Source of the DNA: Branchiostoma lanceolatum
Lineage: Eukaryota > Chordata > Leptocardii > Amphioxiformes > Branchiostomatidae
DNA: 64,000 bases
Assembly (NCBI RefSeq): GCF_035083965.1
Contig: NC_089732.1
Span: 10,989,424 to 11,053,423, forward strand
Direction of reading: 5' to 3'
Shown: positions 22,401-28,400 of the stretch, piece after piece
Layout of the letters: each line of letters opens with the position of its first letter
How positions within the stretch are numbered: the stretch's first letter is position 1
Notes under the pieces: model-generated
Databases searched by the model: none
Seen by the model: only the letters and a program-made list of their open reading frames with translations
Told to the model about the DNA's origin: nothing
Position numbers and translations under genes: made by a program

Positions 22401-25400
22401 TGCTTTCGCGTTGTTCAAGTACCAACGATGGAAATGTAAAAAAAAAAATGACGCAAATGTGTTGAGATTTAGTTACGATTGTCAGTCTGAAAGGAATTTT
22501 TTACTTCAAAATGTTTCCAGTTTTGGCGCCAAAATTCTACAATATGTACATTTAAAGCCCTGATAAGCCCTGCAATTAGCCTTCGGGCCTGACTACAGTA
22601 TTGTTATAATATTTCCTCGGGAGGCGGTACCGACTTCCGACGAACTCTGACCCAGTACCGACGTGACACGTGCGGAAAATCACGTGTCTGCAGCACTTGG
22701 GTCAGATAGCTGAAGAAGACCGAGAGATTCGGTCGAAAATTCTGGCGAGTCAACTCTTTGAGTTGGAGAATAGTTTATTATTTCATTATAAATGAATAAA
22801 TGATATTTCCTCCTGTGTTCCATGTAGCCATGGAAGGCGCCCACCCCACCGAGTCCGTGCACCGTGTGCGAAAAGTCTGTATACGAGATGGAGAAACTGA
22901 CGGCGGACGGAGTTATCTACCACAAAGCCTGCTTCAGGTGTTCCCATTGTAAGAAAGTACTCAGGTAAGAACAGAAAGAAAGTAGTGGGGTGCTGTAACG
23001 ATTTTCCTCACCCCATCTACTTGGAGAGTAACGTCGATAGTTTTCCCCTGAGCTACATCGATTTGGTTCAGAAATTAATCCAAATTGTATCCTGACCGTT
23101 AGGAAGCAATGAACCCCCTGTTTTTAACAGGATTTTGGATTGAAAGGTCGAAAAACTAAAATCACCATTTTGCCCTTAAATTGAAGGAAGATCTCGACCT
23201 TTGTTTGCTATATAGGGGGTTATAGAGGGGCTTAGAAAATGTAATGGTAAAGGAAAGTTGCCTTGCGTGCTGGCATAGGGCCCAGAGATACAAATCGACC
23301 GGTAGAGAGGATATGTGTGCCTTTGTAGATAATATCTAGTTTTTCCGGACACTCATTTGGCACGATTTCAATTCCTGCATGTAACGTACATGAGTAGAAT
23401 AGAGGGTTATATAGATCAATTCATGCAAATTTATTCATGAGATGTAAATTTATGTAAATTTATACGAAATGTAGCTAATGAGCTGATTAACATAAAAATG
23501 TAATTAAACCTTTAAATTTATGCATATCAAAGAGATAATTTATGCAATTTTATCCATCAGATGCAAATCTATACAAATTTACGCGAAATTTAGTTAATGA
23601 GTAAAGTAACATAAAAAGGTAATTAAACGTTTTAATTTATGCATAACAAATACATCATTTATGTAAATTCATTCATGAGATGTAAATGTATGCGAAAGTT
23701 GATTAATGAGCTAATCAGCAAAAATGGAAATCAAACGCATAGATTTATGCATAACAAGGATATGATTAATGCGAATGTATTCGTGTGATGCAAATTTATG
23801 CGAAATTCAGCTTATGAGCACATTAACGCGATCGGTTCATCTATGTATAACTAATAGGTGATGTATACATCACTATGTGATAATGTATATGTCGACGGCC
23901 AGTGACCCAAAGGGGTCAAACCGGTGGTGACCTGTGACGTAAAGGGCCAAACCGGTGGCGTCACAGCAAGCATCATGGGATCGTACGTTTATCTTCTCTA
24001 GAAACATCGCACCAGAGTGCCTATATCATCTTCAAAGTGCTCCGGAGTAACTTATTGCTCCCAAGTAAGAATTTACTCCGGCGCGGAGTAGATTATTGCT
24101 CCGGAGTAATGTAAATTACATGTAACACAACAACACAAAAGACACCAGGATATGGCGACACTCTTTCGCAACACGTACTTTATTCATCACTCATCGATCA
24201 ATAATGTACCAAGGAAGTCATAAGTCAACGTGCGGTTCGTCCTATAGGTTATGCCCAACATGTGGGAAAGTTGTACGTGCTGTTGGTGGTAGGCCGAAAT
24301 TGTATTACTTCAGAACGAGGTAGCCATACTTTTTCATCAATGTCTGTTCTGAGACCCAGTTCTTGCTGTGTACGATCTCATTACTGTGACGAGGCAGCTC
24401 AGCAAACTCTATTAGATAAAACTTTTTGCCAGCACGTTTCGTCTCCTTGATCACGTGTTGAGGGACATCGCTTGCACGGTGAGTTATTGGAATTGTCCAG
24501 TCCCGATAGAGCGTCCACTCGTTCTCGTCACCACTGTCGTAGTCGTACTCTTCACTTTCATCAGATGATGCCCATTCGGAAGACAGATCTGACGCTGTAT
24601 CACTCTCGGAACCACTTTGATCACTGTCGGTTTCTGTCGTCGAGACTACCTCCTGGGGGTCCATCACCGACTCTGCTTCTGAGACGATTTCTTCGTCTTG
24701 TGACAACACCTGGCCATCGTCTTCGTCGTCGTTGTCTTCTCCACCTTCTTTGCCATCCGTATCATTTTCAGACGACGTGTCGGAGTCGTCGTCAAAAACA
24801 TCGCGCTGTCGGTATGACCCCGTCTCGGTATCTACGACGACCTCTCCCGAGGCAATAGCTGACTCATCTCGGTGTTTTCTTTCTTGATGACGATCGAGGT
24901 TGAATTTACGATCAAACTCCCTATCACAAACCTCGCAGACGTAAGGCATGCTTCCTTTCTGTTCAATGGACAGCAAGAAAATGGTGCGATATTGATGTAC
25001 ACACAAAGATATAACATGAATGCAAATAGATGCTCCGGAGTAAATTTTTACCGTGGAGTAAATTTTTACTCCGGAGTAAATTTTTACTCCGAGGAAAATC
25101 ATAACTCCGGAGTAAATGTATTACTTGTTAGTAACACGCACGCACGCACGCACACACGCACACACGCGCGCGCGCGTGCGCGCGCGTGCACAGACACACA
25201 CACAATGTTTGTGTGTGTCTGTGCACTTGTGTGTGTGTGTGCGTGCGTGCGTGCGTGTGCAAAAAATTCACACGAATACATTCGCATTAATCATATCCTT
25301 GTTATGCATAAATCTATGCGTTTGATTTCCATTTTTGCTGATTAGCTCATTAATCAACTTTCTGTTCAATGGACAGCAAGAAAATGGTGCGATATTGATG

Positions 25401-28400
25401 TACACACAAAGATATAACATGAATGCAAATAGATGCTCCGGAGTAAATTTTTACCGTGGAGTAAATTTTTACTCCGGAGTAAATTTTTACTCCGAGGAAA
25501 ATCATAACTCCGGAGTAAATGTATTACTTGTTAGTAACACGCACGCACGCACGCACACACGCACACACGCGCGCGCGCGTGCGCGCGCGTGCACAGACAC
25601 ACACACAATGTTTGTGTGTGTCTGTGCACTTGTGTGTGTGTGTGCGTGCGTGCGTGCGTGTGCAAAAAATTCACACGAATACATTCGCATTAATCATATC
25701 CTTGTTATGCATAAATCTATGCGTTTGATTTCCATTTTTGCTGATTAGCTCATTAATCAACTTTCTGTTCAATGGACAGCAAGAAAATGGTGCGATATTG
25801 ATGTACACACAAAGATATAACATGAATGCAAATAGATGCTCCGGAGTAAATTTTTACCGTGGAGTAAATTTTTACTCCGGAGTAAATTTTTACTCCGAGG
25901 AAAATCATAACTCCGGAGTAAATGTATTACTTGTTAGTAACACGCACGCACGCACGCACACACACACACACGCGCGCGCGCGTGCGCGCGCGTGCACAGA
26001 CACACACACAATGTTTGTGTGTGTCTGTGCACTTGTGTGTGTGTGTGCGTGCGTGCGTGCGTGTTACTAACAAGTAATACATTTACTCCGGAGTTATGAT
26101 TTTCCTCGGAGTAAAAATTTACTCCGGAGTAAAAATTTACTCCACGGTAAAAATTTACTCCGGAGCATCTATTTGCATTCATGTTATATCTTTGTGTGTA
26201 CATCAATATCGCACCATTTTCTTGCTGTCCATTGAACAGAAAGGAAGCATGCCTTACGTCTGCGAGGTTTGTGATAGGGAGTTTGATCGTAAATTCAACC
26301 TCGATCGTCATCAAGAAAGAAAACACCGAGATGAGTCAGCTATTGCCTCGGGAGAGGTCGTCGTAGATACCGAGACGGGGTCATACCGACAGCGCGATGT
26401 TTTTGACGACGACTCCGACACGTCGTCTGAAAATGATACGGATGGCAAAGAAGGTGGAGAAGACAACGACGACGAAGACGATGGCCAGGTGTTGTCACAA
26501 GACGAAGAAATCGTCTCAGAAGCAGAGTCGGTGATGGACCCCCAGGAGGTAGTCTCGACGACAGAAACCGACAGTGATCAAAGTGGTTCCGAGAGTGATA
26601 CAGCGTCAGATCTGTCTTCCGAATGGGCATCATCTGATGAAAGTGAAGAGTACGACTACGACAGTGGTGACGAGAACGAGTGGACGCTCTATCGGGACTG
26701 GACAATTCCAATAACTCACCGTGCAAGCGATGTCCCTCAACACGTGATCAAGGAGACGAAACGTGCTGGCAAAAAGTTTTATCTAATAGAGTTTGCTGAG
26801 CTGCCTCGTCACAGTAATGAGATCGTACACAGCAAGAACTGGGTCTCAGAACAGACATTGATGAAAAAGTATGGCTACCTCGTTCTGAAGTAATACAATT
26901 TCGGCCTACCACCAACAGCACGTACAACTTTCCCACATGTTGGGCATAACCTATAGGACGAACCGCACGTTGACTTATGACTTCCTTGGTACATTATTGA
27001 TCGATGAGTGATGAATAAAGTACGTGTTGCGAAAGAGTGTCGCCATATCCTGGTGTCTTTTGTGTTGTTGTGTTACATGTAATTTACATTACTCCGGAGC
27101 AATAATCTACTCCGCGCCGGAGTAAATTCTTACTTGGGAGTAATAAGTTACTCCGGAGCACTTTGAAGATGATATAGGCACTCTGGTGCGATGTTTCTAG
27201 AGAAGATAAACGTACGATCCCATGATGCTTGCTGTGACGCCACCGGTTTGGCCCTTTACGTCACAGGTCACCACCGGTTTGACCCCTTTGGGTCACTGGC
27301 CGTCGACATATACATTATCACATAGTGATGTATACATCACCTATTAGTTATACATAGATGAACCGATCGCGTTAATGTGCTCATAAGCTGAATTTCGCAT
27401 AAATTTGCATCACACGAATACATTCGCATTAATCATATCCTTGTTATGCATAAATCTATGCGTTTGATTTCCATTTTTGCTGATTAGCTCATTAATCAAC
27501 TTTCGCATACATTTACATCTCATGAATGAATTTACATAAATGATGTATTTGTTATGCATAAATTAAAACGTTTAATTACCTTTTTATGTTACTTTACTCA
27601 TTAACTAAATTTCGCGTAAATTTGTATAGATTTGCATCTGATGGATAAAATTGCATAAATTATCTCTTTGATATGCATAAATTTAAAGGTTTAATTACAT
27701 TTTTATGTTAATCAGCTCATTAGCTACATTTCGTATATATTTACATAAATTTACATCTCATGAATAAATTTGCATGAATTGATCTATATAACCCTCTATT
27801 CTACTTACATGTAGTCCGTATGTACTTTTGATAAACTCGCCAAGCAGAAATTGGGTTTAGGCTTGTTTTAACGTCTTTTTTTATGCACTTATGTCGGCTT
27901 TTTAATTTGTCAAGGTTTCTTTCGGCCGCCAACACCATGTATGGCCCTCAAAACGCCTAAATGTCGTCCAAAACCCCAGCTCTCTAGATCTGCCCGTAGA
28001 GTACCTTTAATATTGACAATTCCCAGCGGCAATAGTTAACATATTGTATATCTAGTTACTTGACATAATCAGGGCAACAGTGATATCGATCGCACCCTAT
28101 GATACGTACAGTCAATAGCTTAGCCAAATACTGTTGTGTTAGCATTGTTGTATAAATATTAAGAACTTTTGGTATATAGTCCTTTGGGCAAGACCCCAAT
28201 ATAAAGTGGGTTTTTTTTTAAACAAAACGGAGGGACTAATAACTGAAATTATGGCTTCTATTGCGTATTTTACGGACTCGCAAAACTATTTCTGGATTAT
28301 GATCTCTTTTGTTGTGTTCCAAACCATCTAAACTCTTCCATAAATCGTGCCGGACCTCTGGACCTAAACCTGAATATGAGTTATGGTACGCAACACTATG

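Follow-up and report, generated by a model that had tools for sequence, protein, structure and literature searches.

A palindromic insertion with Maverick-like ends and two copies of a zinc-finger gene in an amphioxus chromosome

In a 64-kb stretch of the genome of the amphioxus Branchiostoma lanceolatum (64,000 nt of contig NC_089732.1, assembly GCF_035083965.1; here called the window), we describe an inserted element of 4413 bp, in which two nearly identical arms face each other in inverted orientation around a tandem array and each arm carries the same open reading frame (ORF) for a 214-aa protein with one C2H2-type finger. The element lies between the two copies of a 6-bp target-site duplication (TSD) and starts with letters close to the terminal motif of the Maverick/Polinton transposons, and these properties together suggest a pathway by which one end of such a transposon might have been copied back on itself. 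The features are given in window coordinates, with the strand where one applies.

23387-23392: left TSD, TACATG
23393-27805: whole element, 4413 bp, starting with AGTAGA and ending with TCTACT
23393-25169 (+): left arm, 1777 nt, 5 mismatches to the right arm
23418-23836 (+): four AT-rich subterminal repeats of 119, 119, 108 and about 73 nt
23423, 23561 and 23788: ATGCAAAT octamers in the subterminal repeats (mirror sites 27403, 27630 and 27768)
24040-24106 and 27092-27158: smaller CTCCGGAG clusters downstream of the ORFs
24305-24949 (-): ORF, 214 aa, with one C2H2-type finger, an acidic middle and a C-terminal part
24955-26064 (+): array of a 403-bp unit, about 2.75 copies (2.8 according to Tandem Repeats Finder, TRF), the first two identical
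25033-25112: CTCCGGAG cluster upstream of the left ORF (mirror 26086-26165; also repeated in the array)
25268-25362 (+): 95-nt piece inside the 403-bp unit, identical to 27410-27504 of the right arm, and present again at 25671-25765
25992-26032: apex hairpin, a 19-position stem with at most one mismatch and a 3-nt loop (copies centred near 25206 and 25609)
26029-27805 (-): right arm
26249-26893 (+): second, identical copy of the ORF, 214 aa
27014-27019 (+): AATAAA, a candidate poly(A) signal about 120 nt past the stop codon (mirror 24179-24184), its function predicted from the motif
27362-27780 (-): mirror copy of the subterminal repeats
27806-27811: right TSD, TACATG

Both ends of the element carry AGTAGAATAGAGGGTTATAT without a mismatch over the 20 nt compared, and when duplication lengths of 2 to 11 were tried at the flanks, 6 was the sole fit, with TACATG perfect on both sides. 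The inverted repeat ends at the duplication, and the sequences beyond TACATG do not mirror each other; flanks that are unlike and bear a TSD argue against a palindrome created by read-through during sequencing, and this artefact was rejected. With up to 3 mismatches allowed, the 20-nt terminus was found in the window at the two end sites only, and in 100 shuffles not at all. The 5 arm mismatches are located at 23460, at 24057 and at three positions in 25158-25167, within the CA/CG repeat adjoining the centre; none of them falls inside either ORF, and the gene reads toward the element end in both arms. An earlier note on this DNA, written by a model from the letters alone, had described perfect termini with a 6-bp TACATG duplication, near-identical arms of about 1.8 kb, and two intact, identical 214-codon ORFs reading outward, all of which agrees with these comparisons.

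The same note had taken almost the whole element to be terminal inverted repeat (TIR), which is right as far as the arms are concerned but misses what the centre is made of. Rather than unrelated DNA, the 859-nt spacer consists of repeats of the 403-bp unit, of which it holds two extra copies. Each unit starts just before the start codon (5 nt between) and passes the centre to the other side, after which it holds a 9-nt filler and the 95-nt piece, rejoining at a common CTTTC (5-nt microhomology). Since the unit spans the centre, the array must have arisen after the palindrome. When two of the three units are taken out, what is left are halves of 1814 and 1792 nt with one base as the centre, and the alignment of these halves has 1788 matches, 4 mismatches, a 20-nt gap in the CG repeat and 2 gap columns at the tip. 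Hairpin stems of at least 16 positions, with loops of at most 10 nt and no more than one mismatch, were sought across the window and occur at four places, three of them the copies of the apex and the fourth at 51672. Once two of the units are set aside the halves thus pair down to the 3-nt loop, and so the underlying element is a single 1.8-kb half joined to its own reverse copy, rather than a core with an arm on either side.

From the end toward the centre, each arm is made up of the four subterminal repeats (a division of our own, based on TRF and repeat rows), a CTCCGGAG stretch, the gene, a further CTCCGGAG cluster and finally a CA/TG/CG tract. Three of the four subterminal repeats contain ATGCAAAT, the first of which begins 30 nt from the element end. 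The window holds 15 copies of this octamer, 10 of them inside the element and 6 of these 10 in the subterminal repeats, where 4.85 would be expected window-wide and the copies are not independent of each other. All 16 window copies of CTCCGGAG are inside the element against 0.30 expected, a count that includes arms and array repeating each other and hence copies that are not independent. Adenovirus replication is aided by Oct-1 (NFIII) sites close to the genome ends. Two further inverted structures were noted outside the element: a 20-position hairpin with a 3-nt loop at 51653-51695, containing two ATGCAAAT copies in opposite orientation, and a second inverted repeat at 14107-14736, with 175-nt arms at 95% identity and 280 nt between them, possibly a small foldback element or a miniature inverted-repeat transposable element.

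The finger of the 214-aa protein matched a C2H2-type family in Pfam below the cut-off (E 1e-4, 23 bits) and, in a phmmer search of PDB sequences, matched the finger array of PRDM9 (E 1e-10). It is followed by a long acidic stretch, and the C-terminal part had no convincing match in Pfam, PHROGs, PDB sequences or IMG/VR. Several weak rows were left unused, namely DUF7502 (E 2) and BUD22 (E 4.7) in Pfam, phrog_36171 (E 0.19) and phrog_5238 (E 0.22, over 18 residues of the C-terminal part) in PHROGs, and an antibody light chain (E 0.96) among the best 60 of 92 PDB matches. Peptide patterns from the protein matched 23 and 4 stretches of IMG/VR, none of which was confirmed by tblastn. The gene product may serve in DNA binding, possibly at CTCCGGAG or at the subterminal repeats.

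No transposase, integrase, polymerase or nuclease domain was recognised in the element ORFs scanned, in keeping with the earlier statement that no enzyme of the families then listed is present, and the PolB, integrase, ATPase and capsid genes that a Maverick/Polinton would own were likewise not recognised in these ORFs. Apart from the gene, the element has 12 stop-free runs of at least 70 aa, and the 8 scanned stand also for the other 4, which are their right-arm mirrors. Opposite the gene, one ORF gave a PyrI_C match below the cut-off (E 0.026), which we regard as fortuitous. In the remainder of the window, the scan covered 30 of the 31 stop-free runs that reach 110 aa (the run at 52524-52865 was left out, as were shorter runs); 0 Maverick genes were among them, and 2 of the 30 matched any family at E 0.01. 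One, at 232-786 (-), is an ORF with a match to the mitochondrial inner-membrane translocase protein Tim29 (E 1.8e-57) and presumably a host gene; the other, at 13420-13749 (-), matches SPATA6 (E 1.4e-10) and is presumably a host exon. Both matches point to an animal as the host.

The CpG observed/expected ratio of the arm is 1.26, compared to a mean of 0.61 and a maximum of 1.06 outside the element (281 overlapping windows), and outside the repeat-rich centre the arms differ at 2 positions in 1777 nt. The few differences, the two intact ORFs and the high CpG ratio fit a recent insertion or a foreign sequence. It had been suggested that palindromy keeps the two gene copies homogenised; such a process may be at work but is not needed, since 2 differences outside the centre and the high CpG fit a young duplication.

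As to family, the earlier note considered that the duplication length fits Polinton/Maverick, IS3EU or Dada, and only the first of these holds up, on the duplication, the long TIR and a five-of-six match to the terminal motif. IS3EU ends are described as always TA..TA and those of the related GingerRoot as mostly TA..TA, occasionally TG..CA, both with 6-bp duplications (PMC10045372), and these two were rejected on the ends of the element, AG..CT. Dada, described as lacking TIRs and as inserted in small-RNA genes (PMC3706591), was rejected on the 1777-nt TIRs. KolobokP, with direct terminal repeats and TTAA targets in its published description, and Ginger2, with 4-bp duplications and TGTNR ends in its own, were rejected as well. 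For vertebrate Mavericks/Polintons, a start with (AGT)2 or (AG)3 is reported, 5'-(AGT)2//(ACT)2-3' being the commonest form, together with a 6-bp TSD, TIRs of 46-1447 bp in intact elements and, in most, accessory ORFs flanking the core modules (PMC8097293); the rve integrase of the Maverick group is likewise reported to make typically 6-bp duplications (PMC12220804). Judged by the description in PMC8097293, our element resembles them in its 6-bp duplication, long TIRs of 1777 nt, ORFs of the accessory kind, outside core modules, and, over five of six letters, its AGTAG start, and differs in being 4.4 kb as opposed to 12.7-24.6 kb, in having no core gene recognised and in a TIR that is nearly the whole element. 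Among the 63995 hexamers of the window, 330 are within one mismatch of AGTAGT and 604 within one of either motif, so the terminal-motif match alone amounts to about 1 in 100 to 1 in 200 and carries weight only jointly with the 6-bp duplication. Because the defining genes are absent, we do not class the element as a Maverick proper; it is at most a non-autonomous Maverick derivative. The earlier reading of a non-autonomous or novel element is supported in that no transposase or integrase domain was recognised in the ORFs scanned, and is weakened by the Maverick-like ends as far as a place outside all known families is concerned.

The interpretation we consider probable, if by no wide measure, is that the element is a non-autonomous, snap-back derivative of a Maverick/Polinton, a palindromic dimer that was inserted in trans, much like a defective-interfering genome. 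We infer a Maverick parent, fold-back, replication and integration in trans, in the following order. The end of a parent Maverick, consisting of the TIR and a terminal accessory gene for the 214-aa zinc-finger protein, would have lost the rest of the element, and the broken single strand would have snapped back on itself, by way of a short inverted repeat in the CA/TG tract, and primed its own copying. The copying would give a hairpin-capped molecule, and replication through the cap a palindromic dimer, bounded by Maverick ends on both sides, which a Maverick integrase supplied in trans could then have inserted with a 6-bp duplication; a later template switch may have lengthened the centre by two 403-bp units. 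Fold-back copying would be expected to leave symmetry that reaches as far as a 3-nt loop, and the hairpin or dimer intermediate already envisaged by the earlier note is favoured for the origin of the element by the near-perfect apex. Protein-primed linear DNA that is copied by strand displacement, as in adenovirus, exposes long single strands. Symmetric defective adenovirus genomes are comparable in that one genome end of a protein-primed linear DNA is duplicated in inverted orientation, and differ in that they are found in virus particles, not as an insertion with a target duplication. Yeast inverted duplications are reported with natural inverted repeats of 3-15 bp at their centres and are proposed there to pass via a hairpin-capped molecule whose replication yields the palindrome (PMC10622511). 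Truncated endogenous mavirus-like elements are reported with TIRs that must have regenerated (PMC8547959), and are in this respect similar, as shortened virus-like elements that still have TIRs, although those described there are 5-15 kb in length and reside in a protist host.

A number of findings weigh against this derivation from a Maverick. The start AGTAGA agrees with (AGT)2 in 5 of 6 letters and not in all six, and the motif itself was described for vertebrates; the 1777-nt arm exceeds the vertebrate range of 46-1447 bp, and the yeast repeats, at 3-15 bp (PMC10622511), are shorter than the stem at the apex. In Pfam at E < 1, the 214-aa ORF matched C2H2-type families alone and no Maverick gene, and even the finger, at 23 bits, is under the Pfam cut-off of 25.2, while the 8 other element ORFs scanned gave nothing above cut-off. 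Two IMG/VR scans with the single protein sequence, which reach close relatives only, found no relative, and an exact search of IMG/VR with the 20-nt terminus gave 0 matches. The stop-free run of 271 codons compares with a longest of 274 in 100 simulated windows, making ORF length alone a weak argument; the CpG excess could alternatively come from (foreign) base composition and not from youth; and a single known copy shows nothing on repeated mobility. Among the titles and abstract openings listed from the open-licence literature there was no palindromic Maverick derivative, which is weak evidence of absence.

The shape of the element can also be approached from foldback elements. By the usual definition, TIRs that form most of the element and contain internal tandem repeats, it is of foldback type, which describes shape and not descent; FB, Galileo and TU likewise consist mostly of very long TIRs with internal repeats, and differ in the lengths of their duplications, in their ends and in arms that are usually without an intact gene. 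It might accordingly be a foldback element of some cut-and-paste superfamily, known or not and unrelated to Mavericks, whose arms and array grew by aberrant gap repair after excision. Subterminal tandem repeats in very long TIRs recall such elements, and filler and microhomology of the kind found at the array joints are typical of gap repair. MuDR-type transposases are described with duplications of 4-10 bp (PMC10045372), a range that includes 6, so the 6-bp duplication is not exclusive to Mavericks and a cut-and-paste foldback origin stays a rival. We nevertheless regard this origin as unlikely, as the families compared that are typed by 6-bp duplications (IS3EU, GingerRoot, Dada) do not fit by their published descriptions and AGTAG with a 6-bp duplication is near the pattern reported for Mavericks (PMC8097293).

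It can further be hypothesized that no fold-back took place, and that the TIR of a Maverick already covered the gene, the unique core having been deleted or dropped in assembly. Mavirus-like TIRs reach up to 2.3 kb, making a gene-bearing TIR of 1.8 kb possible, and the array and arms would be hard to assemble; we find the proposal improbable, since the symmetry extends to a 3-nt loop within the 19-position hairpin, and such a loss would need to have taken away every part of the unique core while ending precisely at the inner edge of each TIR. Slightly more doubtful is a family of Maverick satellites that lives as a near-perfect palindrome with the same gene on either strand, with hairpin-capped replication, a helper integrase and a zinc-finger protein that binds its own repeats. 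An active palindromic family in which the zinc-finger protein is required for replication or transposition, and the hairpin form is the normal intermediate, seems to us the least credible of these readings. It would account for both ORFs being intact and identical, for the placement of all 16 CTCCGGAG sites around the ORFs and in the array and for the 6 of 15 ATGCAAAT octamers in the subterminal repeats, but the duplication by itself raises these motif counts, there is one copy only, and no nuclease, polymerase or integrase domain was recognised.

If the link to Mavericks is true, the element would be comparable to a defective-interfering genome, derived from a virus-like transposon and captured in the chromosome of an animal. 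Sequence alone could then be used to address two questions: does Maverick replication proceed by strand displacement outside the chromosome, and can the Maverick integrase act in trans on short derivatives?

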